This document shows positions 4,248-30,104 of a stretch of 32,309 nt of DNA, piece by piece. The notes below the pieces were generated by a model. It did no database searches. It was not told where the DNA came from and worked only from the letters and a program-made list of their open reading frames with translations. Every line of letters begins with the position of its first letter. Positions within the stretch are counted from its first letter, which is position 1. The stretch spans positions 1 to 32,309 of the forward strand of contig CAIXIX010000605.1 of the NCBI GenBank assembly GCA_903919615.1. Direction: 5' to 3'. The DNA comes from an uncultured Chthonomonas sp. Its GTDB lineage: Bacteria; Armatimonadota; Chthonomonadetes; Chthonomonadales; Chthonomonadaceae. Both the position numbers and the translations under genes were made by a program.

Positions 4248-7200
4248 CTAATGGATTAGCAGGCGCGGCGACTGCAGTTCAACCGGGCCGAGAAGGCCGG
4301 ATGGATCGAGGGGCGCGCCTGGACTGAAGAACGGGATTGTTGTATGCGTGTACTTCTTGTCAGGTGTTAGCGCCGAGTCCCCGATCAGTCGATTAACCCA
4401 CGTGTTGGTTACGGCAATGACAATCCGATTGGTACCGGACACGAGCGCTTGGCCAACTTCTACCCGATACGGAGGTTTCCACAGTACGCCAAGCGCATGC
4501 CCATTGACCCGTACCTCTGCCAAACTGTGAACGTCTCCGAGATTTAAATAGATCGGCGCACCCTTATCGACAAGGAGATGTGGCGGCAGCGTGATCTCTT
4601 TGCTATATATTGCGGTTCCGGAATAGTGTTTAATTCCGTCCTCGCCACTTTTTGTCCAATCTTCAAGTGAGTTAAACGTCACAGCGCGAGGACCTCCCCA
4701 CGCCGGATCGAATTTCACCTCCCACGGCCCTTCGATGTGAAGTCGATAGGGTGGTGAGGTAACGGCAGCTCTCACAGCGGAGCGCGAAGACGTCTGTACG
4801 AGGTAGTTTCCCTGTTCCCAAGCGTAAAGTTTGCCGGAAGATTCCGAACTGGAGGACGTGTCGACTAACGGCCACTGAGACCTTGGACGGTATGGCGGCA
4901 AGACAATGGTATCGTTTTCCGTGAGCGTGATCGTTCCAGGTTTGCCACCGATCGTGTAGTCGATGCGGGCAGATTTGACCCGCAGCGGAGCAGGGTCACT
5001 ACCGGCCAGATCATTGGATGCTTTCGCATACAGCTTGTTGTTACGGATCATCGAGGAAAGGCGTGCAGTAACGTCGATCTGGGCTCGGGTCTCCGCCAGA
5101 ATACCGTAGACGGCATGGCTAATTCGAAGCTGCTGCGCAACTGAATGAACTGCCGCTGGTTTCTCGACGTGTTCGAAGTGGGTGGCGTGAGCATCATTCT
5201 TTCGGAACACGACAAATATGGACTGCCCTGGTTCAAAATCCAGGGTTACCTCTGTGCGTCCGTCCGCAGTCGATCGCCAAATAGGAGCAGGCTTTTCCTC
5301 GCCGGACTCGGGGTTCCATAATTCGGGCGCCTTTCCCGAAATTCGAAATGTGCAGTGAGCCAGCACGCGTTGTTGTTCGTGATTTGCAACAAAATAGAGG
5401 TCCTGGCCGTGAAGAGTCCTGTGCAGGTAGTTAATTGAAGCACCATCTACATCGTGTGAAAAATCTTGCAGCACCTTGCGTTGACGAAGTAAATCACTAA
5501 CGCCACCATAATCGCCAGTCCAAACAATTTTGCCGCGACCAACAGTGTGTTCGATGACATGCTTGCCATCGATGGCGCCCCATAGGACATTTGCGATCTG
5601 CTTGACCTGTTCTTCAGAACCCGGATAACCTCTTAGCCCTGCAGAATGGGCAGGCCGCGGACCAAATACTATGGCTCCCTGGCTAACCAGGCTGGCAATG
5701 CGACGGAGCGTATCGAGCGAAATCGACGGATCGTTAGGCAGGATGAGAAGTCGGTATCGCGCGCCTGACGGCAGGAATAGCGATCCGTCTGATGGGGAAA
5801 CAGATATCCGCTTCATGAGAGTTTCATGATCCGCGCCATCGAGCCTGTAACCAGGCGGTGGGTCGCTGAATGCTCGCCCATCACCCTGAAATTGCAGGCA
5901 ATCGTCACCCTCGTAAGATAAGATGTCTGCTGCGCACTGACCTGATTGCAACACGTACTGGCAGCGGGCCAGGTAGCGGAAGTAGGCTTCGCCCTGGTTC
6001 CACCAGGTTAGATTTCTGGTGAGATAGATACCGTTGCCCCAAGCTGTTCCGGGCTTTTTTCCATCGGTGTCTGGCTGATGTGTGCTGGAATGAAAGTAGT
6101 AGCGATTCACTCCCTGGCTGTAAATCCAGTCTCCCCAGATTTTCATGTTCCAGGGAGTAAAGTTCCAATCTTGATTCGCCGTAAACGATTCCGCACCTAT
6201 GATGCGGCGGCCGTAGGTGTGTGCCGCAGAAGAAGCCATTAATGCGAGCTTGCCATCATTAGCATTCCCGTACCAGAATTCGCTCATGGGCATGTCGTTA
6301 AGGCCAGATGCATGAAGCGAATCGAAGTTGCCATTTCCGTACGCTTCGACCTGGCCCTTCATCCCATGATTATGCAGAAGCTGTGAAAAGTAGCCCCAAT
6401 AGTTTGAATCAAATAGTCCGGCAAGTGTCACCTGAAGGTCGTGGGTGAAGCGGTGCGTAAGATCCTCCGACTCCACAGTACGACCAGTCAAGGTGACAAG
6501 CCAGGGCGCCGCATCGTAGCCATTTTGTGCATTAAACTCTGCGGAAAGGCCATTCGTCCAGTTCTGTGAACCTACTTCATAACTATCAATTAATGAGTAA
6601 ACGAGCGATTTGCCAGCAAGAGGGCCTGCGTCTCGAATAGCTCGGTCCATCATTCCGGCAAAATGATGATCGAGCGCTTGCCTGCTAAGTTTATCGCACT
6701 CTAACCCCAATCCATGAGCTGATGCAGGGTGGTTTACCGCTCCTGTCGACGTTGCGCCAAATCGAATGACAGTCCACCTTCCCGCCGTGGGATGCCAGTT
6801 TCGGTTCGTCCGGAGATTAATGATCGAGGATAAACGTACCGGTCCGTTCACTCCAGGACCTGGGCCAAGCAAGTTTACGGAGGCTAGCCTTACCGCGTTT
6901 TCGCCGGCCGAGAGTTTGAACACGAGGCGGAAATTTCGAGACTTAGTTAGCGGGAAAGCAGCGCGGGATTGCCAGTTGATATCCTGAGGTGGCTGAACTG
7001 TAGAAAGAGTGCGCCAGTTTTTTGATTCGTCCATTGCCTCAATGGTGGTCTGCTGAATTGGGTAGGGATTTAGCCATTCGAAGCCATTGTCGGTTGGCTT
7101 CGGCTGGCGCTGCACGATTGCGAAACGTATGCTGCTCGCAAAGAACTGTTGCGGACAGCTAAATTCGATCCATGCCAAACCAGACGGGTCACCGTGTATC

Positions 7201-7829
7201 TCTATAGACTTGGCGCCGCTGCCGCCAAAAATATACGCCCGATCTTCCGGCGAAAATACTGCGCCAGAACTCAGGGTGATCTCCGGATTAACTTCCGACA
7301 TCATTGGGCCGGACTCAGATGCCGGAGTTGGAAACGCAACTGCAGCAGTATCTCTGTAATAGCCGTACCGAACATAGGGCATGGGTGGTGGTACGAGCGT
7401 TCCAGGTTGCGTGGACTGCGCCTCGCTCCAAACCACCATCTTCATTGAGTCCGCAGGTGTAATCCATGGCCCACCGCTGGAGCTCCAGCCATCACAGTTC
7501 TCAATGCCAAGTTCAAGACCTAATCGTGCAGCCTCCTTTACTGCAAAAGAGGTCAAGTTCCACCACTGCGGAGACATAACGGGCGTTTGCCCCTCGGGAA
7601 GCGTAGCAACATTACAGATGGTTCCGCCACCAATGCCAACCCGTTTCATTGCCTCAAGATCCGCAGTGATGCCTGCTGCGCTTATATGCCCATTCGCCCA
7701 GTGCCACCAAACTTGCGGGCGAGCGTCGCCCGGCGGGTTTTTGAAGCCGGCAGCCAGGTCGAGTACTTGAGCAGATGCATAGCTAGTGACGAGAAAGAGC
7801 GTTACTAAGGGGGTTAACTTCTTGAACAT
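4248..7829 (-). CDS. Secreted GH106-type alpha-L-rhamnosidase
   Basis: 1193 residues with a Sec signal peptide (cleavage near residue 20, YASA/Q). GH106 enzymes remove terminal alpha-L-rhamnose from plant pectins (rhamnogalacturonans) and flavonoid glycosides. Evidence: ARPQVWWHWANGHIS with GITADLEAMKRVGIGG (residues about 36-68), ENCDGWSSSGGPWITPADSM (110-129), DSYEVG (415-420), GAESFTANQDW (545-555) and the HQPDTDGKKPG...TWW block (583-610). Glu418 and Glu547 are the obvious candidate acid/base residues by motif. The C-terminal about 150 residues form a galactose-binding-like sandwich, with LGDVHSLAEVRVNGHALGVLW near the end. Size fits the family (about 1100-1200). No good ribosome-binding site is visible. 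It is the fourth gene in the run of minus-strand genes facing the NRPS and is followed closely by a GNAT gene. Confidence 0.88.
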   Translation of the reverse strand: MFKKLTPLVTLFLVTSYASAQVLDLAAGFKNPPGDARPQVWWHWANGHISAAGITADLEAMKRVGIGGGTICNVATLPEGQTPVMSPQWWNLTSFAVKEAARLGLELGIENCDGWSSSGGPWITPADSMKMVVWSEAQSTQPGTLVPPPMPYVRYGYYRDTAAVAFPTPASESGPMMSEVNPEITLSSGAVFSPEDRAYIFGGSGAKSIEIHGDPSGLAWIEFSCPQQFFASSIRFAIVQRQPKPTDNGFEWLNPYPIQQTTIEAMDESKNWRTLSTVQPPQDINWQSRAAFPLTKSRNFRLVFKLSAGENAVRLASVNLLGPGPGVNGPVRLSSIINLRTNRNWHPTAGRWTVIRFGATSTGAVNHPASAHGLGLECDKLSRQALDHHFAGMMDRAIRDAGPLAGKSLVYSLIDSYEVGSQNWTNGLSAEFNAQNGYDAAPWLVTLTGRTVESEDLTHRFTHDLQVTLAGLFDSNYWGYFSQLLHNHGMKGQVEAYGNGNFDSLHASGLNDMPMSEFWYGNANDGKLALMASSAAHTYGRRIIGAESFTANQDWNFTPWNMKIWGDWIYSQGVNRYYFHSSTHQPDTDGKKPGTAWGNGIYLTRNLTWWNQGEAYFRYLARCQYVLQSGQCAADILSYEGDDCLQFQGDGRAFSDPPPGYRLDGADHETLMKRISVSPSDGSLFLPSGARYRLLILPNDPSISLDTLRRIASLVSQGAIVFGPRPAHSAGLRGYPGSEEQVKQIANVLWGAIDGKHVIEHTVGRGKIVWTGDYGGVSDLLRQRKVLQDFSHDVDGASINYLHRTLHGQDLYFVANHEQQRVLAHCTFRISGKAPELWNPESGEEKPAPIWRSTADGRTEVTLDFEPGQSIFVVFRKNDAHATHFEHVEKPAAVHSVAQQLRISHAVYGILAETRAQIDVTARLSSMIRNNKLYAKASNDLAGSDPAPLRVKSARIDYTIGGKPGTITLTENDTIVLPPYRPRSQWPLVDTSSSSESSGKLYAWEQGNYLVQTSSRSAVRAAVTSPPYRLHIEGPWEVKFDPAWGGPRAVTFNSLEDWTKSGEDGIKHYSGTAIYSKEITLPPHLLVDKGAPIYLNLGDVHSLAEVRVNGHALGVLWKPPYRVEVGQALVSGTNRIVIAVTNTWVNRLIGDSALTPDKKYTHTTIPFFSPGAPLDPSGLLGPVELQSPRLLIH

Positions 7830-7965: not shown

Positions 7966-9120
7966 TTAGTTAGCGAAGAAGCTATCTGAAAGAGCAGTCT
8001 TCAGGTTGATGTGATTGTAAGGCATGTCATATGCTTTGGTTTTATCGGTGGCATTTGCAATATATGCGTCGCCGGTTGCGGGTCGGAATACCACCGCATG
8101 AAGCGAACCTGTGTGCAGCGTCTTCATCAGATCCTGAGCGGCAGCAACATCAATCTGACCATATAGAGACTGCAGGCTGTTGCCGACCTTCTTATTCCAG
8201 GCGCTGCTCATTCCCATCGACATATAGACCATGCCAGGCTTTGTGGAAAAGGGCAGATTATCCGAGCTGTAGACATCACACTTTGTGTGGGAGGTCTTAA
8301 GCGCTCGAACCTGGTTTTCTGTTGCCGATGAGATGCAGTAGAGTAAGGATGTGGTTCGAGTGCCGTTCTTTACCAGGTCAACCGCCTGATTGAGGTTCGT
8401 TGCAAACTCAACTGTATCCCGTATCACAAAGTTAAGCGGCCGACCGTCAAAGCTGTCCGTCTGCATATCCCAGTCATCGCCGATCTCGGACATGGCGATT
8501 CCTGAAGCGTTCATGCCAGTGACCATGCCGATTTGTCCCAACCAACTGACGTTAAGAAATGGAACGCCATGATCGGGTTTGTAGACTATGATCGCCGGGT
8601 ATTTTTGTATGCCTACACGTGTCTCATAATCCAGAGCCCTGATCTGAATGAGGTCGTTGCCTTTTGTTGCCTTGCCTACTGCGGCAAAGAACGTGCAATG
8701 CCATTCTGAAATGTCCGGCACTGCCAGCCCACGCTGTATTTCTTCAATCGGCAGGCCGGATCCGTCTGCTAGGCCCCTGATCTCCTGAAGATACTCCGGC
8801 CTGAGGTGCCTCGTATAACCGGACCAGATTGCATCGACCTCAGCAGTTGATTTACCCAGTCCAAGCAGCATGATTGGGCTGACCCTGTGAGTCATGTACC
8901 GAATCTCTGCGGCGCATAGTTTTCCGTGAGCGTATCCCATTTCGTAGGGTGTGCCTTTGAGGTAGAGCACCGTCGCCTTAGAGCCGTCGGCTCCAACTTC
9001 AATCCGCTTTCCATGCGCGTTTACATCCACAGTTTGAGCGGAGAGGGCTTTTGGCAGGAAAGCGGTACAGAGCAGGCCAGCCAGGGCAATTACGGACACG
9101 TTTCGCAAATGTAGTCGCAT
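7966..9120 (-). CDS. C45-family autoproteolytic acyltransferase/hydrolase (Ntn fold)
   Basis: 384 residues with a Sec signal peptide (about 1-28, ending KALSA/Q), so it acts outside the cytoplasm. The family (acyl-CoA:6-aminopenicillanic acid acyltransferase and relatives) self-cleaves to expose an N-terminal cysteine that makes or breaks amide bonds of small N-acyl or peptide substrates. Evidence: GTPYEMGYAHGKLCA (56-70), candidate nucleophile Cys142 in SEWHCTFFAA, and IRALDYETR followed by a strand, as is typical of the family's 'R-x-x-D' element. The residue before the Cys is His, whereas the fungal enzyme has Gly. A GGGAG about 10 bases upstream supports the ATG at 9120. It follows the S45 acylase gene by 49 bases, so the two unrelated Ntn-hydrolases are likely co-expressed. 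The substrate is unknown. Confidence 0.85.
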   Translation of the reverse strand: MRLHLRNVSVIALAGLLCTAFLPKALSAQTVDVNAHGKRIEVGADGSKATVLYLKGTPYEMGYAHGKLCAAEIRYMTHRVSPIMLLGLGKSTAEVDAIWSGYTRHLRPEYLQEIRGLADGSGLPIEEIQRGLAVPDISEWHCTFFAAVGKATKGNDLIQIRALDYETRVGIQKYPAIIVYKPDHGVPFLNVSWLGQIGMVTGMNASGIAMSEIGDDWDMQTDSFDGRPLNFVIRDTVEFATNLNQAVDLVKNGTRTTSLLYCISSATENQVRALKTSHTKCDVYSSDNLPFSTKPGMVYMSMGMSSAWNKKVGNSLQSLYGQIDVAAAQDLMKTLHTGSLHAVVFRPATGDAYIANATDKTKAYDMPYNHINLKTALSDSFFAN

Positions 9121-9169: not shown

Positions 9170-11323
9170 TTAGTGTTGGGTTGTCGATGCGTCGTCGCCA
9201 GCTTTCAGGGCGCTGGCTGTGCCGTAGTCAAAATGTAAGGTTGCAGTGATATGCTTCATCAACTCTGATCTATTCAGGAAGTAGGTCGATCCAACCTCGC
9301 CCTTGGAGAAGAGTTTCTCGGCCATATCGTCCCAGTGCCCGCTTGACTTATGGTCACTTTCGCCGAGCGGGAGGATGAACCAGGACTGCGGCGGATTAGT
9401 CATGGCAACGATCTGAGTTGCAGTCTGTCCGCCATGTCCGACCATTACTCCGTTCATTGGATCATAGGAGACCGCATGGGGTGTGGCCATGCCCACATCA
9501 TTTTGACCGCCGTTCAATGAACCGCCACTCGAAGGATATGTGCGCTCACCACCTTCACGGCCAACACGGAAATACTTGCCGTACGGCACGTCAATCTGCC
9601 CAAAAGTACTGCGCATCCAGTCGGCTCCTTTCGACAGGGCCTGCACAATCTGTGCGTCTGTCAGGCTTGCCGGAGGCTCCGTTTGGTGCGCAATCTCGTG
9701 AGGAAGATTAAGTTTGAACGCATAATACGCCATCGCAGATGTTGAATCCGCACTGCTTACGCGGTTCCATGAGAGTATTTGATCGAGAAGATGTGCTGGC
9801 AGATCGCTTTTACTGTCTGCAACCGCTATGGATGCTCTTGCTAACCTCTCTTGCCATAGCTGAGCGTGCCACACCTCAGAACTAAAGGCGATTTCGATCA
9901 TTTTCTCTACTGAGACGGACTTCGTTCGATCCAGCAGCTCAGTCATCATCTCCGAACGCTGATGTCGGGGCAGATCTTGTGTTGCGTTATACAGGTAAGG
10001 ATATTTGCTGTACTTCTCAGGTACTAGCGGGCTGTTGCGCATCATTCCCGCGGGGGTAACATTGCAATTATGCATGTAGCCGCTTGGTGGATTCGTTATC
10101 TGGACGTAGTCGTGGGAGCTATGTATACCGCGGAACTCTGTGCGTGACGTGTTTCCAGGAACGGGACGGGTCCAATCGACTCCCTTTGCCCTGATCGGCA
10201 CGCGACCGGTGCGCTGATAGTAGATGTCGCCCTGTACAGTGGCGACCATCACGTTTTGCATCATGAACTGGCGCATGTCGAGCGCTCGTTTCATCTCATT
10301 GAGATTTCGCGCGGTCATCATTGCATACGACTGATCAGCAAGGCCAACCGCCTCGTTGTACAGGCTAGCCATTGCGTATGCATGCCCGGGACTGTGCGCG
10401 ACGATGGGTCCATGGTGCGACGACTCGAAAGTTAGGTCTTTGTACACGATGCCGTTCGCAGTCTTAACGCCGATCCTCGAAGTCCAGGTCTTCAGGTTGC
10501 GCCACTTACCATCGTATTTGTATTGGTGGGGGTTGGCGGGATTCAGCTCTTCTTCATATACGTCGGTAGTATCGGGACCACCTGTTGTCATTGCAACAGA
10601 GCAGAAGCGGCTATGTCCCAGGGTAGGCAGCGGCATACCCACTAGAGCTGCACCGCTAACCTGGTAATCTCCAGCGTATATCCTCTCTGCGTAGAAGCGG
10701 AATGGGCCATACCACGTGAGATGCGGGTCGATGACGGCAAGTGGGACGTGCATGGATGATCTTGAAGGTGCGATTAGCATCTCATTCGAGCCATGATAGA
10801 TAGGAGGCGGATCGAATCTGAGACCGGCCTTGCTCAGGTCATCCTCCGCTTCACCAAGCGGCCATCCCCAGATAATGTATCGGCCAAGCGCGATGGCATC
10901 CCAGGGATGAATCTCCTGTGCCCAGGCCGGCTTCTGTTCAGGATGATCCTGTATGAATTTCCTGACCCCATCCTGATACGCTTCAATGCACTCCCTAACA
11001 ATTGGACTGACTTGATTGTATTTCTGCCTGGCAATCTCTTCGTGCCTGAATAGCCGCTGTTCCGCGTCCTCCGACAGATGATCTGGCCCAAGTACTTCAG
11101 AGACCGTTCCTGCGGCACGCCGGTAGTTTAATAGAAGCTCCTCAAGTCGGTCTTCAGCCTGAGCATAACCCAAAGCGTACGATGCGCCACGAAGGTTGTC
11201 TGAGTAGACATGCGGTACGCCCCATTCGTCGCGATACAACGTTGTATCCGAGTGGGCTATACGAGCGAGACTGCAAACCGCCGCAGCCACAAATGTCAGA
11301 ACAAAAAGCGAACGCCGTGTCAA
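9170..11323 (-). CDS. Penicillin acylase family (S45) amidase
   Basis: 717 residues from TTG at 11323, chosen because TGGAG lies 7 bases upstream and because it begins a good signal peptide (TRRSLFVLTFVAAAVCSLARIAHS). S45 proenzymes are exported, cut themselves into alpha and beta chains and hydrolyse amide bonds (beta-lactam side chains, N-acyl-homoserine lactones, N-acyl amino acids). Evidence: early YRDEWGVPHVYSDN and ASYALGYAQAEDRLEE, a spacer, then HGSNEM with Ser179 as the new beta-chain N-terminal nucleophile, then AVIDPHLTW and late GGQTATQIVAMTNP. Size is normal for the family. The usual Trp after GSN is replaced by Glu-Met, which may indicate a different acyl pocket. It faces the Pls-type synthetase gene and precedes the C45 gene. 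Confidence 0.9.
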   Translation of the reverse strand: MTRRSLFVLTFVAAAVCSLARIAHSDTTLYRDEWGVPHVYSDNLRGASYALGYAQAEDRLEELLLNYRRAAGTVSEVLGPDHLSEDAEQRLFRHEEIARQKYNQVSPIVRECIEAYQDGVRKFIQDHPEQKPAWAQEIHPWDAIALGRYIIWGWPLGEAEDDLSKAGLRFDPPPIYHGSNEMLIAPSRSSMHVPLAVIDPHLTWYGPFRFYAERIYAGDYQVSGAALVGMPLPTLGHSRFCSVAMTTGGPDTTDVYEEELNPANPHQYKYDGKWRNLKTWTSRIGVKTANGIVYKDLTFESSHHGPIVAHSPGHAYAMASLYNEAVGLADQSYAMMTARNLNEMKRALDMRQFMMQNVMVATVQGDIYYQRTGRVPIRAKGVDWTRPVPGNTSRTEFRGIHSSHDYVQITNPPSGYMHNCNVTPAGMMRNSPLVPEKYSKYPYLYNATQDLPRHQRSEMMTELLDRTKSVSVEKMIEIAFSSEVWHAQLWQERLARASIAVADSKSDLPAHLLDQILSWNRVSSADSTSAMAYYAFKLNLPHEIAHQTEPPASLTDAQIVQALSKGADWMRSTFGQIDVPYGKYFRVGREGGERTYPSSGGSLNGGQNDVGMATPHAVSYDPMNGVMVGHGGQTATQIVAMTNPPQSWFILPLGESDHKSSGHWDDMAEKLFSKGEVGSTYFLNRSELMKHITATLHFDYGTASALKAGDDASTTQH

Positions 11324-12018: not shown

Positions 12019-15000
12019 ATGTCTGAGTCGCATACGTCTGAAGGGGCGCCGACGCCGTTGCCGGATGCTCTCAAGATCAATGTCGGCTTGCTCCAGCAGC
12101 CACTCAAAACTGTTATTGATCCCGTTTTTAATCATGGTCGCTCAATTCCGGATAGGATTGCGATTGTTTCAAGCGATCTAAACCTCACCTACGCTGAACT
12201 AAACTCTAGATCCAACCAGATTGCCTATGCAATCAAGCAGCTTGGTATTCGACGAGGCGACCGCGTCTCGTTTGTCTTAAATCGTGGTTCAAAGACGGTT
12301 TTGCTTATTGTTGGCATTTTGAAAGCAGGCGCCGCGTATGTGCCGCTAGATGCTAGCTCTCCTTTAATGCGAATCAAAGACTGCTTAGAAGACGCCCAAC
12401 CAGGGCTGATAATCCATGAGGAATCCGGGTTAGCCGGCGATCTGACTTTTGATCCTTCTGTTCGCCGAATTAGTATTGATGACCTGTTTGCGCTTGCAGA
12501 TCGTGAATCGGAAGATCCCGACGCCCTTTGTGCAGACGCTGTCCGTCCGGAAGACCTTGCCTACATCATCTTCACTTCGGGTTCAACAGGCCGTCCGAAG
12601 GGCGTCCCAATTTCACACGCCGCTTTAGCGAATTTCGTGGTTGGGAATCAACAGGAGTGCATTTGCCTTCTGGAAAGCGACGTGGTGTTTCAAGGTTTTT
12701 CACCTGCGTCAGATGGGCATCACGAGGAGATATGGCCCACCTTTCTGGTAGGCGCCAGGCTGGCAGTTGGTGGCGCTAAAGAGGTGTATTCCGGGTTCGA
12801 TCTTGCAGCGTTCTTAAATCTGCATCAGGTTACAGTAATATCCTGTGCGCCAACGCTCCTTTCCATGGTGGATCAGGATATACCTTCACTGCGGCGGATC
12901 CTATTCGGCGCTGAGAACCTGCCGAGCGCACTTGTGGAGCGATGGTGGCGGCCAGGCCGGACCATTTTGAATACTTACGGTCCAACTGAAGCGACGGTCG
13001 GTGCGACTTTCGGTGAGTGTGTACCGGGTAAGCCCATTACGATCGGCAGGCCGCTTCCGGGTTACGCTTGTTACATTCTTGATGAAGCCTTTCAAAAAGT
13101 CGTCGCGGGTCAAGATGGCGAACTGTGTATCTCAGGCATCGGGGTATCGAAGGGATACTATCGACGAGACGACTTGAGTTCAGGTAAGTTTCTCCCGAAC
13201 CCTTTTCATGTTCGTGGCCAACAGACGAAAACTCTGTACAGGACGGGTGATCGAGCGAAGTACGACGATAGCGGAAACATCGTTTGGCTCGGCCGAATTG
13301 ACGGACAGGTTAAAATTCGCGGGCACCGAATTGAGCTATCTGAGATTGAGAGCAGCCTCGCTGCATGTCCGGGCATCCAAACTGGCGTAGCTGTGGTTAG
13401 AGATACCGATGTTGGTGATAAGATGCTCGCCGCATTGATAGTCCCGCGGGCAGGGGAAAAGTTTCAGGTTGGTGATGTTCTGGAACACTTGCGAGACACG
13501 CTGCCACCCTACATGGTGCCCCAGACCCTGGAGCAGGTAGACGCGATTCCGCGATTACCCAGCGGGAAAATTGATCGATCGGCCTGCCAGCATATGCGGG
13601 GCAAGGCATTTCGTATTGAGCGCGAGATTGTACCGGCGCGTACACCGAACGAGCAGCGAGTGATCGACGCATGGCAAGAGTTGTTTCCTCACACGGTTGT
13701 CTCTGCTACTGATGATTTCTTCAGGGACCTTGGCGGATATTCATTGCTGGCATCGCGATTTATTTCTCAGCTTAGAAATGAAAGGCAATTCATCCGGGTT
13801 TCTGTGCTTGACCTGTACGAAAATCCAAGTGTGAGAGGATTTGCTTCAGTTCTAGACTCACAGGTACATCACGAGGGCAAGGTTCCTGAGTTTAAGCATG
13901 TACCTGCCTCCCGATATACTATTGCCAGGATTGTTCAGGCGTTTGGGGTGTTAATATTGTTTGGCATCCAGGGTCTCTTCTGGCTAGGACCAATCATTGC
14001 GGCAATTTACCTCTCGGCTGAGCTCGGGCATCACGATGCTATAGCTCTCCTCTTAGGTGTGGTGATGCATGCAGCATCGGTTCCTCTCTATCTTCTCCTC
14101 GTTATTGCACTCAAATGGCTGGTAATGGGCAGGTGCAAGGAGGGGCACTACCCGCTGTGGGGCAGTGTTTATCTGAGATGGTGGTTTGTCGGGCGGTTGT
14201 TTGTATCCGCTCCTGTAACGGTAATAACCGGCACACCCCTAGCAGCTGTCTACTTGCGAGCACTTGGCGCCCGCATTGGTAAAAATGTCCTGATCGAGTC
14301 TTTGGAGATAGATTGTCCGGACTTAATTACCATCGGGGACGATTGCAGCTTTGAGAATTCTGCATGGATCCATCCGGCTGAGGTCGCCTACGGAGAGCTT
14401 CATTTCGGCAAGGTAATCGTCGGCAATGGGTGCAGCATCGGAGTTCGCTCAGGACTATCCGCAGGTTCATCAATGGCAGATGGTTCTGCACTGCGTGACC
14501 TCACTTGTGTCCGAACTGGAACATCTGTTCCGGCAGGTGAAGAGTGGCAAGGAAGCATCGCCCGCAAATGCGAAGATAGAGTACTTCCTGAATATGATCC
14601 CGCAAAGCAGCCATCGCATTCTCGCCTGGCACTTTTTGCAGTCATCCAGACCTTGCTCGTTGTGCTCCTCGCGGTCCTTGAGTCTATTCCATTTGTAACG
14701 GTTGCATTTACCCTTTACAACTTAAGCGAAGGGTTCACAGCCTACCTTTGGGAGCCCGTGTACGCCATTGTTCTTGTCTGCTTTGCCTCTATCCAGGTCC
14801 TCATCGTTAAGTGGGCTGTGATGGGAAGGCTAAAGCCTGGCACGTACCCGTTCCCGGGAGGGTACTGGCTGCGAAAGTGGTTCACAGACAAACATCTTGA
14901 GCTCACTAGCGGAATCATTGTGCCGATCTATGATTCCCTGTTTGCGAGGCCGTGGTGTATCGCGCTCGGAATGAAGTGCGGTCCCAGATGCGAAATCGCT

Positions 15001-16044
15001 CTTCCCAGGAGGATGCCGTACGACCTTGTTTCAATGGGCGAAGAGAGTTTCCTCGCTAGCGAAGTCAGCATCGGCAGACCAATACGACGCAACGGCAACA
15101 TAACGCTCGAAAACACGGTCGTCGGTAATCGCTCGTTCCTGGGAAACGACTCGGTGGTGCCGCAAGGCTCAAATGTGCCAGATGATTTTCTGCTGGGTGT
15201 ACTCTCGGTGTGTCCTGGCCCTGAAAGCACAAGCGGCGGAGAAGAACAAGCCTGGTTGGGGTCGCCTCCGTTTCGGATGCCAAATAGGCAAGTGGTGGAT
15301 ATCTTTGACCCTACGCGCACTTACCGGCCAACCCGCAAGCTCTATTTGCAGCGGCTGATTCATGAGACCGTTCGAATATTTCTTCCGAGCCTGTGTTCGC
15401 TAGTCGTAGCCTCGGTACTTGTCGAAGGGTTCGTGTCTATCTGGGTGCAGCACTCGTTTGTCCTTGCCATCTCTGCAATCCCTGGTCTTTATCTCATAGG
15501 GACGCTTATTGGATCGCTAATCTGCCGTATCTCGAAGCAGGCCTTCATTGGTGAATACCGTCCGACTATTCAGCCTCTTTGGAGCCAGTTTGTCTGGAAA
15601 ACTGAGACCCACTCAGCAATATTGCACGATTTCGCAGCGCCTCTTTTCCTTACAACATTGCTTGGAACCCCATTCCTGCCATGGTTTATGCGATTCATGG
15701 GCTGTAAAGTTGGTAAGCGTGCCTTCATCAATTCGACGGACTGGACGGAGAGCGACCTGATCACCATAGGGGACGATGTTGCGATTAATGCCAATGCACC
15801 CCTGCAGGCACATCTCTTTGAAGATCGTGTGATGAAAGTCGGCCCCATTCGGGTTGGCGATCGCTGCAGTGTTGGCAACTACTCTGTAATCCTGTGCGAT
15901 TCGGAATTGAAAAACGACTCACTCGTCGGGCACCTTTCGCTGGTAATGAAGGGAGAGACAATTCCATCGCACACCTACTGGGCCGGTTCGCCAGCGCAAA
16001 TATGCGATGATCTGGATGTCTCTGCTGCTGTCACGACATTGTAA
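12019..16044 (+). CDS. Pls/PosA-type membrane-bound single-module NRPS, putative poly(amino acid) synthetase
   Basis: 1341 residues from ATG at 12019 (AGAGG about 10 bases upstream); a TTG at 11974 would add 15 residues. Order: adenylation domain (about 40-525) with FTSGSTGRPKG (185-195), NTYGPTEATVGA (318-329), YRTGDRAKYDD (407-417) and LPSGKIDR (513-520); carrier domain (about 540-610) with the phosphopantetheine serine Ser575 in LGGYSLL; then three repeats, each of two membrane segments plus a left-handed-beta-helix-like domain (about 630-860, 865-1090, 1105-1330). Repeats one and two share K-W-x-V-M-G-R-x-K-x-G-x-Y-P (699-712, 931-944). Epsilon-poly-L-lysine synthetase has this layout and nearly this length. 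There is no condensation or thioesterase domain. By alignment the pocket reads D-G-E-S-L-G-T-V-G-K, close to the lysine code as I recall it. Product inferred: a cationic homopolymer or short amide oligomer. Confidence 0.88.
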   Translation: MSESHTSEGAPTPLPDALKINVGLLQQPLKTVIDPVFNHGRSIPDRIAIVSSDLNLTYAELNSRSNQIAYAIKQLGIRRGDRVSFVLNRGSKTVLLIVGILKAGAAYVPLDASSPLMRIKDCLEDAQPGLIIHEESGLAGDLTFDPSVRRISIDDLFALADRESEDPDALCADAVRPEDLAYIIFTSGSTGRPKGVPISHAALANFVVGNQQECICLLESDVVFQGFSPASDGHHEEIWPTFLVGARLAVGGAKEVYSGFDLAAFLNLHQVTVISCAPTLLSMVDQDIPSLRRILFGAENLPSALVERWWRPGRTILNTYGPTEATVGATFGECVPGKPITIGRPLPGYACYILDEAFQKVVAGQDGELCISGIGVSKGYYRRDDLSSGKFLPNPFHVRGQQTKTLYRTGDRAKYDDSGNIVWLGRIDGQVKIRGHRIELSEIESSLAACPGIQTGVAVVRDTDVGDKMLAALIVPRAGEKFQVGDVLEHLRDTLPPYMVPQTLEQVDAIPRLPSGKIDRSACQHMRGKAFRIEREIVPARTPNEQRVIDAWQELFPHTVVSATDDFFRDLGGYSLLASRFISQLRNERQFIRVSVLDLYENPSVRGFASVLDSQVHHEGKVPEFKHVPASRYTIARIVQAFGVLILFGIQGLFWLGPIIAAIYLSAELGHHDAIALLLGVVMHAASVPLYLLLVIALKWLVMGRCKEGHYPLWGSVYLRWWFVGRLFVSAPVTVITGTPLAAVYLRALGARIGKNVLIESLEIDCPDLITIGDDCSFENSAWIHPAEVAYGELHFGKVIVGNGCSIGVRSGLSAGSSMADGSALRDLTCVRTGTSVPAGEEWQGSIARKCEDRVLPEYDPAKQPSHSRLALFAVIQTLLVVLLAVLESIPFVTVAFTLYNLSEGFTAYLWEPVYAIVLVCFASIQVLIVKWAVMGRLKPGTYPFPGGYWLRKWFTDKHLELTSGIIVPIYDSLFARPWCIALGMKCGPRCEIALPRRMPYDLVSMGEESFLASEVSIGRPIRRNGNITLENTVVGNRSFLGNDSVVPQGSNVPDDFLLGVLSVCPGPESTSGGEEQAWLGSPPFRMPNRQVVDIFDPTRTYRPTRKLYLQRLIHETVRIFLPSLCSLVVASVLVEGFVSIWVQHSFVLAISAIPGLYLIGTLIGSLICRISKQAFIGEYRPTIQPLWSQFVWKTETHSAILHDFAAPLFLTTLLGTPFLPWFMRFMGCKVGKRAFINSTDWTESDLITIGDDVAINANAPLQAHLFEDRVMKVGPIRVGDRCSVGNYSVILCDSELKNDSLVGHLSLVMKGETIPSHTYWAGSPAQICDDLDVSAAVTTL

Positions 16045-16106: not shown

Positions 16107-16227
16107 TGCGCGTCTAGAGCCTCCGTTTCCGTTGGGAAATTTAGCCACCGCGACCGTGGTTGTACGGGTGACTACTTGTACCGAGTCTCGATATTCTAAC
16201 GTACTGGTATTACGATTCGAGAATACT

Positions 16228-17106
16228 TTGTCTAAACAGTTAAGATCTAACCTTGTTGGCTACGCCTTCGTGGGGCCCTGGATTATTGGATTTCTTGTAT
16301 TTACTGCCTTTCCTTTCCTGTCGAGCATCTACCTTTCATTTAACCGTTACAACATTGTAAAGCCACCCGTGTGGGTTGGGTTACAGAACTACTCAACACT
16401 ATTTCACGATGACCCTCAATTTCGGCAGGCGCTTTTAGTTACTCTGAGATTTGCCTTTTGTTCCGTGCCGATGAGCATAGTCGCGGGCGTCTGCCTTGCA
16501 CTCCTCCTGAATCAGAAGGTGCGAGGGCTCAGTATCTATCGTACTCTCTTCTTTCTTCCTTCGATCGTGCCAACTGTTGCGTCTGCCACCATCTTCCTAT
16601 GGCTCTTCAATCCAGAGATTGGGCTAATAAACCAGATCCTAAGCCTGTTTCACATACAAGGGCCCGCGTGGCTCCTTGATACGAAATGGGCGCCATGGAG
16701 TCTCATTTTTATGTCACTCTGGGGTGTCGGCAATAGCATGGTGATCTATCTTGCTGGCCTTAAAGACGTTCCAACCTACCTTTATGAAGCAGCTTTGATA
16801 GACGGAGCCAACTCACTTCAGCGTCTGCGGCATGTGACACTACCCATGCTAACTCCCGTAATCTTTTTCAATCTTGTAATGGGTGTGATCGGTTCGTTCC
16901 AGTATTTTACTGAAGCTTATATGATGACAAAGGGCGGTCCCGAAGATGCGACACTCTACTACGCGCTTTACCTATTTATGCGAGCGTGGCGCTACCTTGA
17001 TATGGGATATGCCAGTGCGCTTGCGTGGGTGTTGTTTGCCGTAGTCATGAGCATAACCCTGCTGCTATTCCGGTCTCAGAAGAAGTGGGTGCATTATGGC
17101 AGTTGA
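16228..17106 (+). CDS. Carbohydrate ABC transporter permease (MalF/UgpA type)
   Basis: 292 residues from TTG at 16228 (SKQLRSNLVGYAFVGPW). The frame is open to a TTG at 16132, but the extra 32 residues have no ribosome-binding site and would be unusual for the family; the start is uncertain. Six transmembrane segments are expected, beginning with FVGPWIIGFLVFTAFPFLSS. The EAA loop that docks the ATPase is EAALIDGANSLQRLRHVTLP. It forms the inner-membrane channel with the permease at 18465. Its stop overlaps the next gene by 11 bases, so translation is likely coupled. The sugar cannot be read from the sequence. Confidence 0.92.
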   Translation: MSKQLRSNLVGYAFVGPWIIGFLVFTAFPFLSSIYLSFNRYNIVKPPVWVGLQNYSTLFHDDPQFRQALLVTLRFAFCSVPMSIVAGVCLALLLNQKVRGLSIYRTLFFLPSIVPTVASATIFLWLFNPEIGLINQILSLFHIQGPAWLLDTKWAPWSLIFMSLWGVGNSMVIYLAGLKDVPTYLYEAALIDGANSLQRLRHVTLPMLTPVIFFNLVMGVIGSFQYFTEAYMMTKGGPEDATLYYALYLFMRAWRYLDMGYASALAWVLFAVVMSITLLLFRSQKKWVHYGS

Positions 17107-18475
17107 TGACGAGCTGACGGAGCAGGGGCGATCCAGGCGTGCAGCTTTAAAGAGTGCGGCAGGGGTTGCAGTTGCTGCTGCCGCGGGCGTTTTCTTGCTA
17201 GAGCCGGCTCAATTCATGATAGGGAAGAGCCGCAAGAAAGTAAGATACTGGCACGAACTCGGCGGTGAATGGTTAAAGCCGATGGAGAGCATCCTGGAAT
17301 CGTTTAACCGCAGCCAGGATACCTATGAGATGGACCCGCTGCTGATTTCGGACAGCGAGGCCGATTCAAAAATGATGTTATCGACGGTAGGTGGCGAACC
17401 GCCAGACGTCGTGCTCATCTGGACGCAAGCGACCAGCGAGTGGGCCGACAGCGGCCTTCTCCATCCGCTCGACAGTTTCATGACTCCCGCTGAGATGGCG
17501 TGGTTCAAGACGCGAACCTACCCGGTGGTACGAAAGAGCGGATGGTTCAAGGGTAATCTCTACGGTCTCGTGATGGGATTTGACCTGTTTGTGTGCTTTT
17601 ACCGGCCAGACCATTTTAGACAGGCAGGGTTAGACCCAGATAAGTTCCCTGAGACACTTGAGGAGCTCGTCGAAGTTGGCGATCACCTGCACAAATTCAA
17701 TGCTTCGGGTGATATCACTAGAATGGGCTTCTTGCCGAGCCATTTTGATCGATTTGCTGCTCTTTTTGGTGGCGGATTCTACAACGAAAATACCGGTGCA
17801 TTAACGCTCAATACTCCAGAGAATTTGAGAGCGCTTAATTTTTTAGCCGACTGTCGTAAGCGATTCGGTCCAGATGGCTTCAAGAAAGTCATCCGGTTCG
17901 AATCGGGACTGTCGTCAGACGATGGCGCCTCCTGGCCGTTCATTCAAGGCAACTATTCGATTCTTGTGGACGGTGAATGGCGCGTGGAACAGCTCCATCG
18001 GTACAAACCCGATCTCGAGTACCGCACAATTCCAGTTCCACCACCAAAAGGCGGCAAGAAGCGCGCAAGCTTTGCAATGACGAATTTTTTAGTCATGCCT
18101 AAAGGCGCCAGGTGTCCCGATGGAGCGTGGGAGTTTATCCGATTCTGGACCGGACTACGCAATCCAGCCGCGGCAGCTCAGTTTTATCCTTTGCTCGGAT
18201 GGATGCCACTCTCCCCAGATGTAACCCATGCACCGCAATATCAGGCGTGGTTGAATGAGGTACCGCAATACAGATCGTTCCTCGACGTCGCAGAGAGTGA
18301 CAATATTCGAATAACACCGCCTGTGCCTTTTCAGCTGTACCTAATGGACCAGGTTCAACGGACCGACGACTATGTGAGCCGCGGTACGCTGACACCGGAG
18401 AAGGCCCTTGTGCGGCTCGAACATGACGTTGCGCATGAGCTTGAGCGAAGACGGAGGCTAGGCTATGCTGACTAA
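17096..18475 (+). CDS. Sugar ABC transporter substrate-binding protein, Tat-type signal
   Basis: 459 residues; ATG at 17096 lies inside the end of the preceding permease gene. The N-terminus has GRSRRAALKSAAG followed by an Ala/Val-rich helix (VAVAAAAGVFLLEP), which fits a Tat signal (S-R-R-x-x-L-K) rather than a Sec lipoprotein signal; no lipobox cysteine is seen. The mature part is of the extracellular solute-binding protein family 1 kind: KVRYWHELGGEWLKPMESI, GGEPPDVVLIWTQ, GNLYGLVMGFDLFVCFYRP and GNYSILVDGEWRVEQL are the usual landmarks. It would deliver an oligosaccharide or sugar to the two permeases. The end overlaps the next gene by 11 bases. Confidence 0.92.
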   Translation: MAVDDELTEQGRSRRAALKSAAGVAVAAAAGVFLLEPAQFMIGKSRKKVRYWHELGGEWLKPMESILESFNRSQDTYEMDPLLISDSEADSKMMLSTVGGEPPDVVLIWTQATSEWADSGLLHPLDSFMTPAEMAWFKTRTYPVVRKSGWFKGNLYGLVMGFDLFVCFYRPDHFRQAGLDPDKFPETLEELVEVGDHLHKFNASGDITRMGFLPSHFDRFAALFGGGFYNENTGALTLNTPENLRALNFLADCRKRFGPDGFKKVIRFESGLSSDDGASWPFIQGNYSILVDGEWRVEQLHRYKPDLEYRTIPVPPPKGGKKRASFAMTNFLVMPKGARCPDGAWEFIRFWTGLRNPAAAAQFYPLLGWMPLSPDVTHAPQYQAWLNEVPQYRSFLDVAESDNIRITPPVPFQLYLMDQVQRTDDYVSRGTLTPEKALVRLEHDVAHELERRRRLGYAD

Positions 18476-19343
18476 GTCCTCCAACAAAGGATTGCTCCAG
18501 GGCAGAGCACGTATACTTACCCATTTGACACTCGTCGCGTTAAGCATTCCTGCAATTCTGCCTATGGTTTGGATGATTGCAACATCGTTCAAAACAGACA
18601 AACAGATCTTTGCCACCGAGGGACACGAATCAGCGCTCTATCTGCTAAAGCATATGATTCCCCATCCGTTTTACTGGAAGAATTACCCAGCAGCTATTCA
18701 TGCGATCCCGCTCGAAATCTATCTGAGAAACTCACTGCGTCTCTGCTTATTTAACGTCGTTGGCGCCGTGCTCTCTAGCGCTGTTGTGGCCTATGGTTTT
18801 GCAAGGCTCGAGTTCAAGGGCAAGAATGTCCTGTTCATGATCATGATCTCGACGATGGCGCTGCCAGGTCAGGTTACGATGATCCCCGTGTTTGTTGTGT
18901 TCCGGTGGCTGGGGTGGTACGGAAGTTACCTGCCATTGACTGTGCCTGCATTCTTCGGTAATGCATTTTTCATCTTCCTCTTAACGCAGTTCTACAAATC
19001 CCTTCCAGGTGATCTTAGCGAAGCCGCACGAATCGATGGAGCAAACGAGTGGACGATTTTTGCGCGCGTTATGCTGCCGCTGGCAAAACCAGCGCTGGCG
19101 ACGTGCGCTCTATTTCAATTTCTGGCAACATGGAACGATTTCTTCGGTCCTCTCATCTATATTAATGACGTGCGCAAATACCCGCTCGCATACGGGTTGC
19201 AGCAGTTCTTATCTAATCACGGGAGTGAATGGGCGCGCCTTATGGCTGCATCCACACTTTTCGTGTTGCCTGTAATTGTGCTATTCTTTTTTGCACAACG
19301 CACCTTCATTGAAGGAATCGCCACAACGGGTGGCAAAAACTGA
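18465..19343 (+). CDS. Carbohydrate ABC transporter permease (MalG/UgpE type)
   Basis: 292 residues; ATG at 18465 overlaps the end of the binding-protein gene by 11 bases. The first membrane helix is LTLVALSIPAILPMVWMIATSFKT, a hallmark of the MalG type, and the EAA loop is EAARIDGANEWTIFARVMLP. It pairs with the 16228 permease. No ATP-binding subunit follows in the window: the next gene is a prepilin, so the importer probably shares an MsmK/UgpC-type ATPase encoded elsewhere, as many sugar importers do. A perfect TGTGA-N6-TCACA palindrome begins two bases after its stop codon. Confidence 0.93.
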   Translation: MLTKSSNKGLLQGRARILTHLTLVALSIPAILPMVWMIATSFKTDKQIFATEGHESALYLLKHMIPHPFYWKNYPAAIHAIPLEIYLRNSLRLCLFNVVGAVLSSAVVAYGFARLEFKGKNVLFMIMISTMALPGQVTMIPVFVVFRWLGWYGSYLPLTVPAFFGNAFFIFLLTQFYKSLPGDLSEAARIDGANEWTIFARVMLPLAKPALATCALFQFLATWNDFFGPLIYINDVRKYPLAYGLQQFLSNHGSEWARLMAASTLFVLPVIVLFFFAQRTFIEGIATTGGKN

Positions 19344-28493: not shown

Positions 28494-30104
28494 TCAATTC
28501 ATACGAAGAACAGACTGAGGCGCACCGTCGGTGAGGCTAAATGTTGCGTTATCCACGCCAAAGCGGTTTACCCGAATGTTCTTGCAGCGCTTACCCCGGA
28601 TACTGCAAATCCATGCGTCGGCCTGGGTTTCCAAGGAATTGACGATCATGTTCGTGCTATTAACTACTTCAGCAGATGGAGAATGCGGAACGATCCATGT
28701 GCTCAATCCTGATATCCGCACTCCGTCTGTGTCTTGAATCCAAACAGGAAGCTTAGGCGTGGAAGCAGATGATGGTGACGGCGGAGCCTGGTTCCAATCG
28801 ACTTTCCGATCGTCCAAAACGCTAAGTCGCCAGAACTCGGTCTTGCATTGCAGATTTATGTCTCTCAATGTCAGTTTTCGTACATGTCGAACGTACAATC
28901 CGTCGGCAGGCAGTGGGCCAAACATATCCGGATCCGGATATTCCTTAGTCTGCTCCGGCACGGCATAACCTGGTGGGGCAAGCATGTTGGCGCCGGTATA
29001 ACGAATCCGGAAATCAGTGAGCGAAACGTCTTCGATATCACTGCCCGGAATGCCTGAAAGCATACAAGGCTGGGAGGCATCTTCAACAACAACGTGCGAG
29101 ATCGAGACATTGCGAAGGCTGCCGGGTTGCGGTGTGGGCATGTCTCGCCCCCTGTTTCCTAACCTCACAAATACGGGGCTTCTAACAAAGAACATGCTCA
29201 CATTTGAAATTGTCACCCCTGCAATGTTTGCGCCATCTACCGATTCGAGCGCAATACCGCTTGATGCCGGCGCTACCCGAGCGAGACCGCACATCACGCA
29301 GTTATCCAGAGCAATATGCTGGAAGTCGCTACCTGTCTCTGTTCCGATCTTAAAGCAGTTGCAATATGTCGATAGAAAACAGTTCGAAATGACCACGTTA
29401 TCGCAAGAGCGATGCTCGCCGAGCGAATAGCTCGATTTTAGAACGATGGCGTCGTCCTCACACTCGATGTGGCAATTGGATATTCTAATGTTTCTGCAAG
29501 AGTCGGGGTCAATTCCATCTGCAAGGCCATGCAGGATCGTCACTCCCTCAATCTCAACATAGTCGGTCCCAATAAGGCTGATGTTGTAATTGGGGGCGTT
29601 CTTAATGGTGATGCCCTGAATCTTGATGAACTGGCAGCGTTTTAGGGCAATCGGTTTTGGGCCTAACCTTTGTACAAAATTGGAATCGATCTGTCCCTCT
29701 CCAACAATAGATACGTGTGAGATATCTTCACCCCAGATCAATGCAAGATGGAAAAACGAGGTCTCTCTGTCGGAAGCGTTCTTGAAGCCAAGCACTTCTG
29801 GGGGATCGTAGGCAGCGAGGCTCCTAATGCCTTTAATCGTGGAACCTGCCTGCAGTCTCAGGGTGATATTCGATTTCAGATGAATGGATCCTGTTAGATA
29901 CGTGCCTGCAGGAAACACCACATCGCCGCCGCCGCGCGCAGCGATCCCATCGATGGCACTTTGGATCGCAGTCGTGTCAATAGACTTACCATCTCCGGCA
30001 GCGCCATAGCTGCGGACAGTGGTTTGCTCCTGGCAATAACAGATAGTGCCAGAGCATGTAAGGCACAGGCTGCAGAGAAGCAACATTAGTGAGAGGCGCA
30101 TCAT
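28494..30104 (-). CDS. Secreted GH28-like right-handed beta-helix protein
   Basis: 536 residues with a Sec signal peptide (about 1-24). GH28 enzymes hydrolyse polygalacturonan and related pectins outside the cell. Evidence: TTVRSYGAAGDGKSIDTTAI with VVFPAGTYLTGSIHLKSNITL at the front, as in all pectinase-like beta-helices, and the active-site region LADGIDPDSCRNIRISNCHI (Asp196, Asp199) with CEDDAIVLKS (Asp217, Asp218). The place where GH28 normally has G-H-G reads STYCNCFKIGTET, so the conserved His is Cys248 here; this is a known look of divergent bacterial GH28-like proteins, and the activity may differ. The gene begins 24 bases after the stop of the KimA-like gene, so it is likely co-transcribed. 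Regulation may involve the promoter at 32111. Confidence 0.87.
   Translation of the reverse strand: MMRLSLMLLLCSLCLTCSGTICYCQEQTTVRSYGAAGDGKSIDTTAIQSAIDGIAARGGGDVVFPAGTYLTGSIHLKSNITLRLQAGSTIKGIRSLAAYDPPEVLGFKNASDRETSFFHLALIWGEDISHVSIVGEGQIDSNFVQRLGPKPIALKRCQFIKIQGITIKNAPNYNISLIGTDYVEIEGVTILHGLADGIDPDSCRNIRISNCHIECEDDAIVLKSSYSLGEHRSCDNVVISNCFLSTYCNCFKIGTETGSDFQHIALDNCVMCGLARVAPASSGIALESVDGANIAGVTISNVSMFFVRSPVFVRLGNRGRDMPTPQPGSLRNVSISHVVVEDASQPCMLSGIPGSDIEDVSLTDFRIRYTGANMLAPPGYAVPEQTKEYPDPDMFGPLPADGLYVRHVRKLTLRDINLQCKTEFWRLSVLDDRKVDWNQAPPSPSSASTPKLPVWIQDTDGVRISGLSTWIVPHSPSAEVVNSTNMIVNSLETQADAWICSIRGKRCKNIRVNRFGVDNATFSLTDGAPQSVLRMN

Follow-up and report, generated by a model that had tools for sequence, protein, structure and literature searches.

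Synthetase gene and domain organization

The window, as the whole 32,309-nucleotide stretch analysed here is called (contig CAIXIX010000605.1, positions 1 to 32,309 of the forward strand; assembly GCA_903919615.1), came from an uncultured Chthonomonas sp. Its gene at 12019..16044 (plus strand) very probably encodes a Pls/PosA-family homopoly(amino acid) synthetase that is membrane-bound, resembles a nonribosomal peptide synthetase (NRPS), and would make an isopeptide-linked polycation from a diamino acid. The open reading frame (ORF) was stop-free, began with the ATG at 12019 downstream of a purine-rich GAAGAGG, and specified a 1341-amino-acid (aa) protein with the layout A-T-(TM2-LbH)x3, as delimited from the ORF and profile scans: an adenylation (A) domain, a carrier (T/PCP) domain, and three repeats (C1 to C3), each composed of a transmembrane (TM) helix pair plus a left-handed beta-helix (LbH). 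Compared to the copy in a genus-mate (see below), the gene displayed a proportion of nonsynonymous differences (pN) of 0.23 versus a saturated proportion of synonymous differences (pS) of 0.80 and is, by this comparison, under strong purifying selection; a pseudogene was ruled out by this selection together with the stop-free frame. Promoter and terminator scans returned nothing beyond chance, and Rfam gave no match.

The NCBIfam profile TIGR02353 ('Pls/PosA family non-ribosomal peptide synthetase') was matched by residues 639-1326 over profile positions 2-695/695 with 574 bits, exceeding its curated cut-off of 423.1 bits, and assignment of the ORF to Pls/PosA by chance was excluded. TIGR01733 was matched by residues 57-457 with 370 bits, and Pfam placed AMP-binding at residues 42-381, AMP-binding_C at 442-517, and PP-binding at 546-610; the Pfam and NCBIfam scans of the protein found no condensation (C) or thioesterase (TE) domain. 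The A domain (residues ~30-525, 12106..13593, plus strand; profile scans and alignment) had intact core motifs, and the carrier domain (residues 546-610, 13654..13848, plus strand; Pfam and alignment) contained the phosphopantetheine Ser575 in GGYS, which was kept in 35/35 aligned family proteins.

Hydropathy analysis placed six helices in three pairs (645-663/678-696, 870-888/917-935, and 1125-1143/1147-1165), spaced as in PosA, the delta-poly-L-ornithine synthetase of Acinetobacter baumannii; an extra weak peak at 94-112 lay inside the A domain. The repeats, all on the plus strand, were delimited as C1 (residues ~635-862, 13921..14604; hydropathy, hhalign, and PDB profile match), C2 (residues ~863-1112, 14605..15354; hydropathy, hhalign, and alignment), and C3 (residues ~1113-1335, 15355..16023; hhalign, model, and alignment), and they were mutually homologous (hhalign probability 99.95, 100, and 99.8%). 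A 28-row C-terminal profile matched LbH proteins of the PDB (gamma-carbonic anhydrases and hexapeptide acyltransferases) at ~1e-13. A single-repeat model of C3, made from nine repeat sequences, reached a predicted local distance difference test score (pLDDT) of 82 and matched LbH acetyltransferases (VatA, QdtC, and similar; Z ~15, maximum 15.4; root-mean-square deviation 2.5-4.7 over 115-122 residues); the beta-helix assignment came from profile and model for C3 and from the profile for C1 and C2. C3 carried the motif Q-x-H1265-x-x-E-D-x-x-x-K, in which His1265 was kept in 33/33 sequences covering the position and was the sole invariant His of the polymerization region, and C2 carried Ser1014.

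A sequence-only reading of this DNA had proposed one A domain, one carrier domain, three TM-pair/beta-helix repeats, no condensation or thioesterase domain, and a length of 1341 residues, together amounting to an enzyme of Pls/PosA type. Pfam, NCBIfam, hydropathy, and hhalign agreed with this architecture, and family membership and size were borne out by the profile search and by the 1336-aa length of PosA; the best matches did not fall among unrelated A-T-LbH enzymes, which that reading had named as the alternative.

Window clade and its adenylation pocket

Pls/PosA matches were found in 25/291 Armatimonadota genomes (E <= 1e-20), 13 of them above the family cut-off. In a tree of 35 proteins, the Armatimonadota genes formed three groups: A (the window clade), B, and C, with support of 100/100 for A and C and 92/97 for B. 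The source genome, a 7.4-Mb metagenome-assembled genome (MAG) of 614 contigs belonging to Armatimonadota and related to Chthonomonas, carried two copies from different clades, the second in group C. Group A consisted of seven near-full-length genes, spanning three families of Armatimonadota, plus a fragment in G097; its other members were 51-69% identical to the window protein, the closest (69%) being that of an uncultured Chthonomonas MAG (the genus-mate). The window clade grouped with neither Streptomyces Pls nor group B. The best plasmid relative was 38% identical. Recent horizontal transfer was unsupported, since GC content and GC content at third codon positions (GC3) matched those of the neighbours and the flanking order was common to the genus-mate; separate trees of the adenylation and C-terminal parts kept the clade together, giving no sign of domain shuffling.

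The guess of an Armatimonadota origin in the sequence-only reading was correct, with relatives lying in Armatimonadota genomes. Its emphasis on a Pls/PosA enzyme outside actinomycetes held for this locus but not as a novelty: such occurrence of the family is already published, homologs having been reported across phyla and in fungi and A. baumannii PosA having been characterised (PMC10522769), and NCBI annotation already covers many proteobacterial copies.

The ten Stachelhaus positions were taken from an alignment including A. baumannii PosA, whose row was identified by its match to PDB 8g95. They were D232, G233, E236, S275, L295, G297, T319, V327, G328, and K517, giving the code DGESLGTVGK, which was present in 7/7 near-full-length group A proteins. 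The register was validated by PosA, which returned its published code DMEHNGTVSK, and by group C, which returned the published Bdellovibrionales code DSECYGGVTK; the Streptomyces gene annotated as epsilon-poly-L-lysine synthase (Pls) gave the lysine-type code DAESIGTVVK, and genes beside diaminobutyrate aminotransferase gave DFEC codes. Code positions 1 and 3 were Asp and Glu, respectively, in 7/7 group A proteins and 28/28 other members, and mutation of this Asp or Glu was reported to abolish PosA activity (PMC10522769). Group A matched none of the lysine (Ala at position 2), ornithine, and beta-lysine codes; as read from the alignment, DGESLGTVGK is different from these and from the diaminobutyrate codes as well. 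Neither this code nor the group A motifs appear in the main text of PMC10522769, the supplementary table of which lists further codes.

Group A was also set apart by three sites outside the code: (i) the A4 motif was Ser-Asp-Gly-His-His-Glu-Glu, versus Phe/Tyr-Asp-x-Ser/Ala-x-Glu-(Glu) in the other 28 members; (ii) GAE replaced the GGE of these 28; and (iii) Ser1014 of C2 replaced the Asp found in all 28. DNA encoding DGHHEE[IV]WP occurred in exactly 7/291 Armatimonadota genomes, all carrying group A (window DNA of DGHHEEIWP at 12712..12737, plus strand); beyond this phylum the clade was looked for by one exact 8-mer contig scan, in which one of the 8-mers had Ile where relatives have Val, and which found only the genus-mate. 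Within these searches, group A was seen in Armatimonadota only.

PosA (PMC10522769; PDB 8g95-8g98) was 33% identical to the window protein from end to end and shared its domain order, length, TM placement, carrier Ser, pocket Asp/Glu, and C3 QxH..ED motif, but differed in the code, in the A4 motif (FDMSFEE versus SDGHHEE in the window), in GGE instead of GAE, and in Asp instead of Ser1014. Pls (gene of Streptomyces sp. NBC_01454; Pls A domain, PDB 7wew) shared family, architecture, 7/10 code positions, and Glu at position 3, but was ~32% identical and differed at code positions 2, 5, and 9 (A/G, I/L, and V/G, respectively); in addition, the Streptomyces Pls gene was followed by an M1 metallopeptidase gene, while the window synthetase had none. 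The diaminobutyrate-linked genes of Streptomyces sp. NBC_01527 and Skermanella rosea had the same family and architecture, but they carried DFEC codes and lay beside diaminobutyrate aminotransferase genes, neither of which applied to the window clade.

Judged from these pocket residues, the most probable monomer is L-lysine or else a lysine-like diamino acid that is substituted or slightly larger, ahead of ornithine, diaminobutyrate, and diaminopropionate, because the pocket has a lysine code with two of its positions opened (Gly at positions 2 and 9). Code position 2 has been tied to substrate chain length, with Phe, Met, and Ala for increasing length (PMC10522769). In a narrower version, plain L-lysine would be polymerised in a relaxed pocket to ordinary epsilon-poly-L-lysine, which we rate slightly below an even chance: the seven code positions common with DAESIGTVVK (D, E, S, G, T, V, and K) point that way, as does the PosA variant M218A, in which a smaller position 2 raised Lys use nearly 10-fold (PMC10522769), but both Gly openings were found in all seven members from three families, resembling selection more than drift, and group B of the same phylum, from which the window clade stands apart in the tree, retains the lysine-type code with alanine. 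That the group A pocket polymerises either a modified form of lysine or a diamino acid bulkier than lysine into a homopolymer unseen in nature is a tentative and rather unlikely proposal.

Polymerisation of L-beta-lysine appears very unlikely. Code positions 1-4 (DGES) were the same as in DGESISVVNK, published for the epsilon-poly-L-beta-lysine synthetase of Streptoalloteichus hindustanus (as cited in PMC10522769), but positions 5, 6, 7, and 9 (4/10) differed, and beta-lysine is disfavoured because the source genome and the seven other clade genomes had no match to the lysine 2,3-aminomutase family (TIGR00238), for which 9/14 controls were positive; MAG incompleteness or import leave some room. 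A diaminobutyrate route is disfavoured, with no dat gene over cut-off in eight genomes and a code other than DFEC.

Neighbouring genes and other family members

Upstream of the synthetase gene and divergent from it lay a penicillin-amidase family gene (9170-11323) and a C45/AAT-type acyltransferase gene (7966-9120), two adjoining minus-strand genes of N-terminal nucleophile (Ntn)-hydrolase types, and downstream (16132-19343) lay ABC transporter genes in the order permease/binding-protein/permease, of sugar or glycerol-phosphate uptake type. That these genes form a cluster with the synthetase and process or move its polymer is highly improbable: they adjoin it, and the amidase and transporter genes also lie beside the genus-mate gene (67-81% identical), but gene order is generally conserved between the window and the genus-mate, with lon, leuB, and the transporter genes syntenic; moreover, the amidase, C45-type, and transporter genes were not beside the synthetase in the group A loci L049, L050, and L051, the transporter of L052 was encoded on the opposite strand and separated from the synthetase by other genes, and the transporter is of an uptake type. 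The C45-type gene was absent from the genus-mate locus, where the amidase gene was present. An operon with the ABC transporter or the divergent Ntn-hydrolases, being not conserved beyond the genus, was rejected, and these genes were not counted in the system. The window also encoded a 1193-aa GH106 alpha-L-rhamnosidase family protein (4248-7829), which the genus-mate lacks at the corresponding position, and a GH28-like protein (28494-30104); the two are signs of plant polysaccharide use.

The second Pls/PosA copy of the source genome (L045:4224-9824, contig C147) and a Bdellovibrionales homolog belonged to the same family, were 30% identical to the window protein, and had the code DSECYGGVTK. 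A small SET-domain protein gene preceded the second copy and was kept beside the synthetase gene in six loci (L045, L055, L056, L057, L058, and L063), and a HGSNAT/DUF418-type membrane acetyltransferase gene followed it in four (L045, L055, L056, and L058). These neighbours suggest that the amines of the second copy's product may be methylated or acetylated; to our knowledge, SET-domain or acetyltransferase partners have not been reported for the Pls/PosA family. A relative 51% identical to the second copy, also with DSECYGGVTK and without a SET gene, was found on ~220-kb Streptomyces plasmids (L073:4938-8957). A full-length Pls/PosA relative with the exact PosA code DMEHNGTVSK was found on an IMG/VR contig (L070:3001-6885, IMGVR_UViG_3300031372_000055), which may be a mis-binned host fragment. 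The source MAG has further nonribosomal peptide capacity, because other NRPS adenylation domains were found on its contigs C121, C520, C8, and C323, including a 2992-aa frame with three.

Predicted mechanism and significance

Characterised members of the family were reported to activate the monomer with ATP, to load it as a thioester, and, lacking a canonical condensation domain, then to couple it to a free monomer or oligomer through the latter's side-chain amine (PMC8949500, PMC10522769). By homology, the window synthetase would act in the same steps: (i) the A domain would adenylate the diamino acid with ATP, Asp232 contacting the alpha-amine and Glu236 the side-chain amine; (ii) the monomer would be loaded onto the phosphopantetheine arm of Ser575; (iii) a three-fold beta-helix assembly at the membrane would pass it to a free acceptor, onto the side-chain amine, with His1265 of C3 probably acting as base, by analogy with LbH acetyltransferases; and (iv) repetition would build up a short polycation with isopeptide linkages, to be released at the membrane or across it. 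A phosphopantetheinyl transferase (PPTase) gene lay directly 3' of the synthetase gene in four group A loci, which is separate evidence for a working carrier; the source genome had two PPTases, located elsewhere in the genome.

A different outcome would be the joining of a single diamino acid to a lipid, sugar, or small molecule, with the beta-helix repeats acylating this acceptor. Small acceptors are the usual targets of LbH transferases, the C-terminal repeats were LbH acyltransferase-like by profile and C3 model, the A4 and C2 changes were clade-specific, and for most Pls/PosA members the product has yet to be proven; but the window protein matched over its whole length a family in which the characterised members synthesise homopolymers, and it retained the family-invariant C3 motif, so that single-unit transfer seems quite unlikely.

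Several points weigh against a homopoly(amino acid) synthetase. The departures of the clade from the 28 other members in A4, GAE, and the C2 Ser make a changed substrate or chemistry possible; no monomer-making, export, or polymer-degrading gene dedicated to the synthetase was linked to it within the window; and of the structure prediction that the sequence-only reading had proposed for the C-terminal repeats, C3 came out as an LbH, whereas the AlphaFold model of the whole C-terminus (residues 615-1341, three-row alignment with L005 and L070) had a pLDDT of only 32 and did not reproduce the three-fold assembly. The pseudo-three-fold packing of the PosA beta-helices was itself described from AlphaFold (PMC10522769), and a solved structure of full-length Pls was searched for in the literature, with no relevant result.

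We infer both substrate and product of the group A synthetase from its sequence, and a cationic polymer, as the sequence-only reading had supposed, is plausible. The part that may be new is the window clade with its own invariant pocket and motifs. Nature is known to make few cationic homopoly(amino acids); one of them, epsilon-polylysine, already serves as a food preservative. If plain lysine is activated, the clade would extend a known family in a routine way. A pocket that does not vary among three families of a phylum with few cultivated members, and that matches no code assigned in the main text of PMC10522769, is a compact lead to a further polymer, and the A4 motif and C2 residue add natural variation for asking how beta-helix repeats can polymerise when no condensation domain is present.

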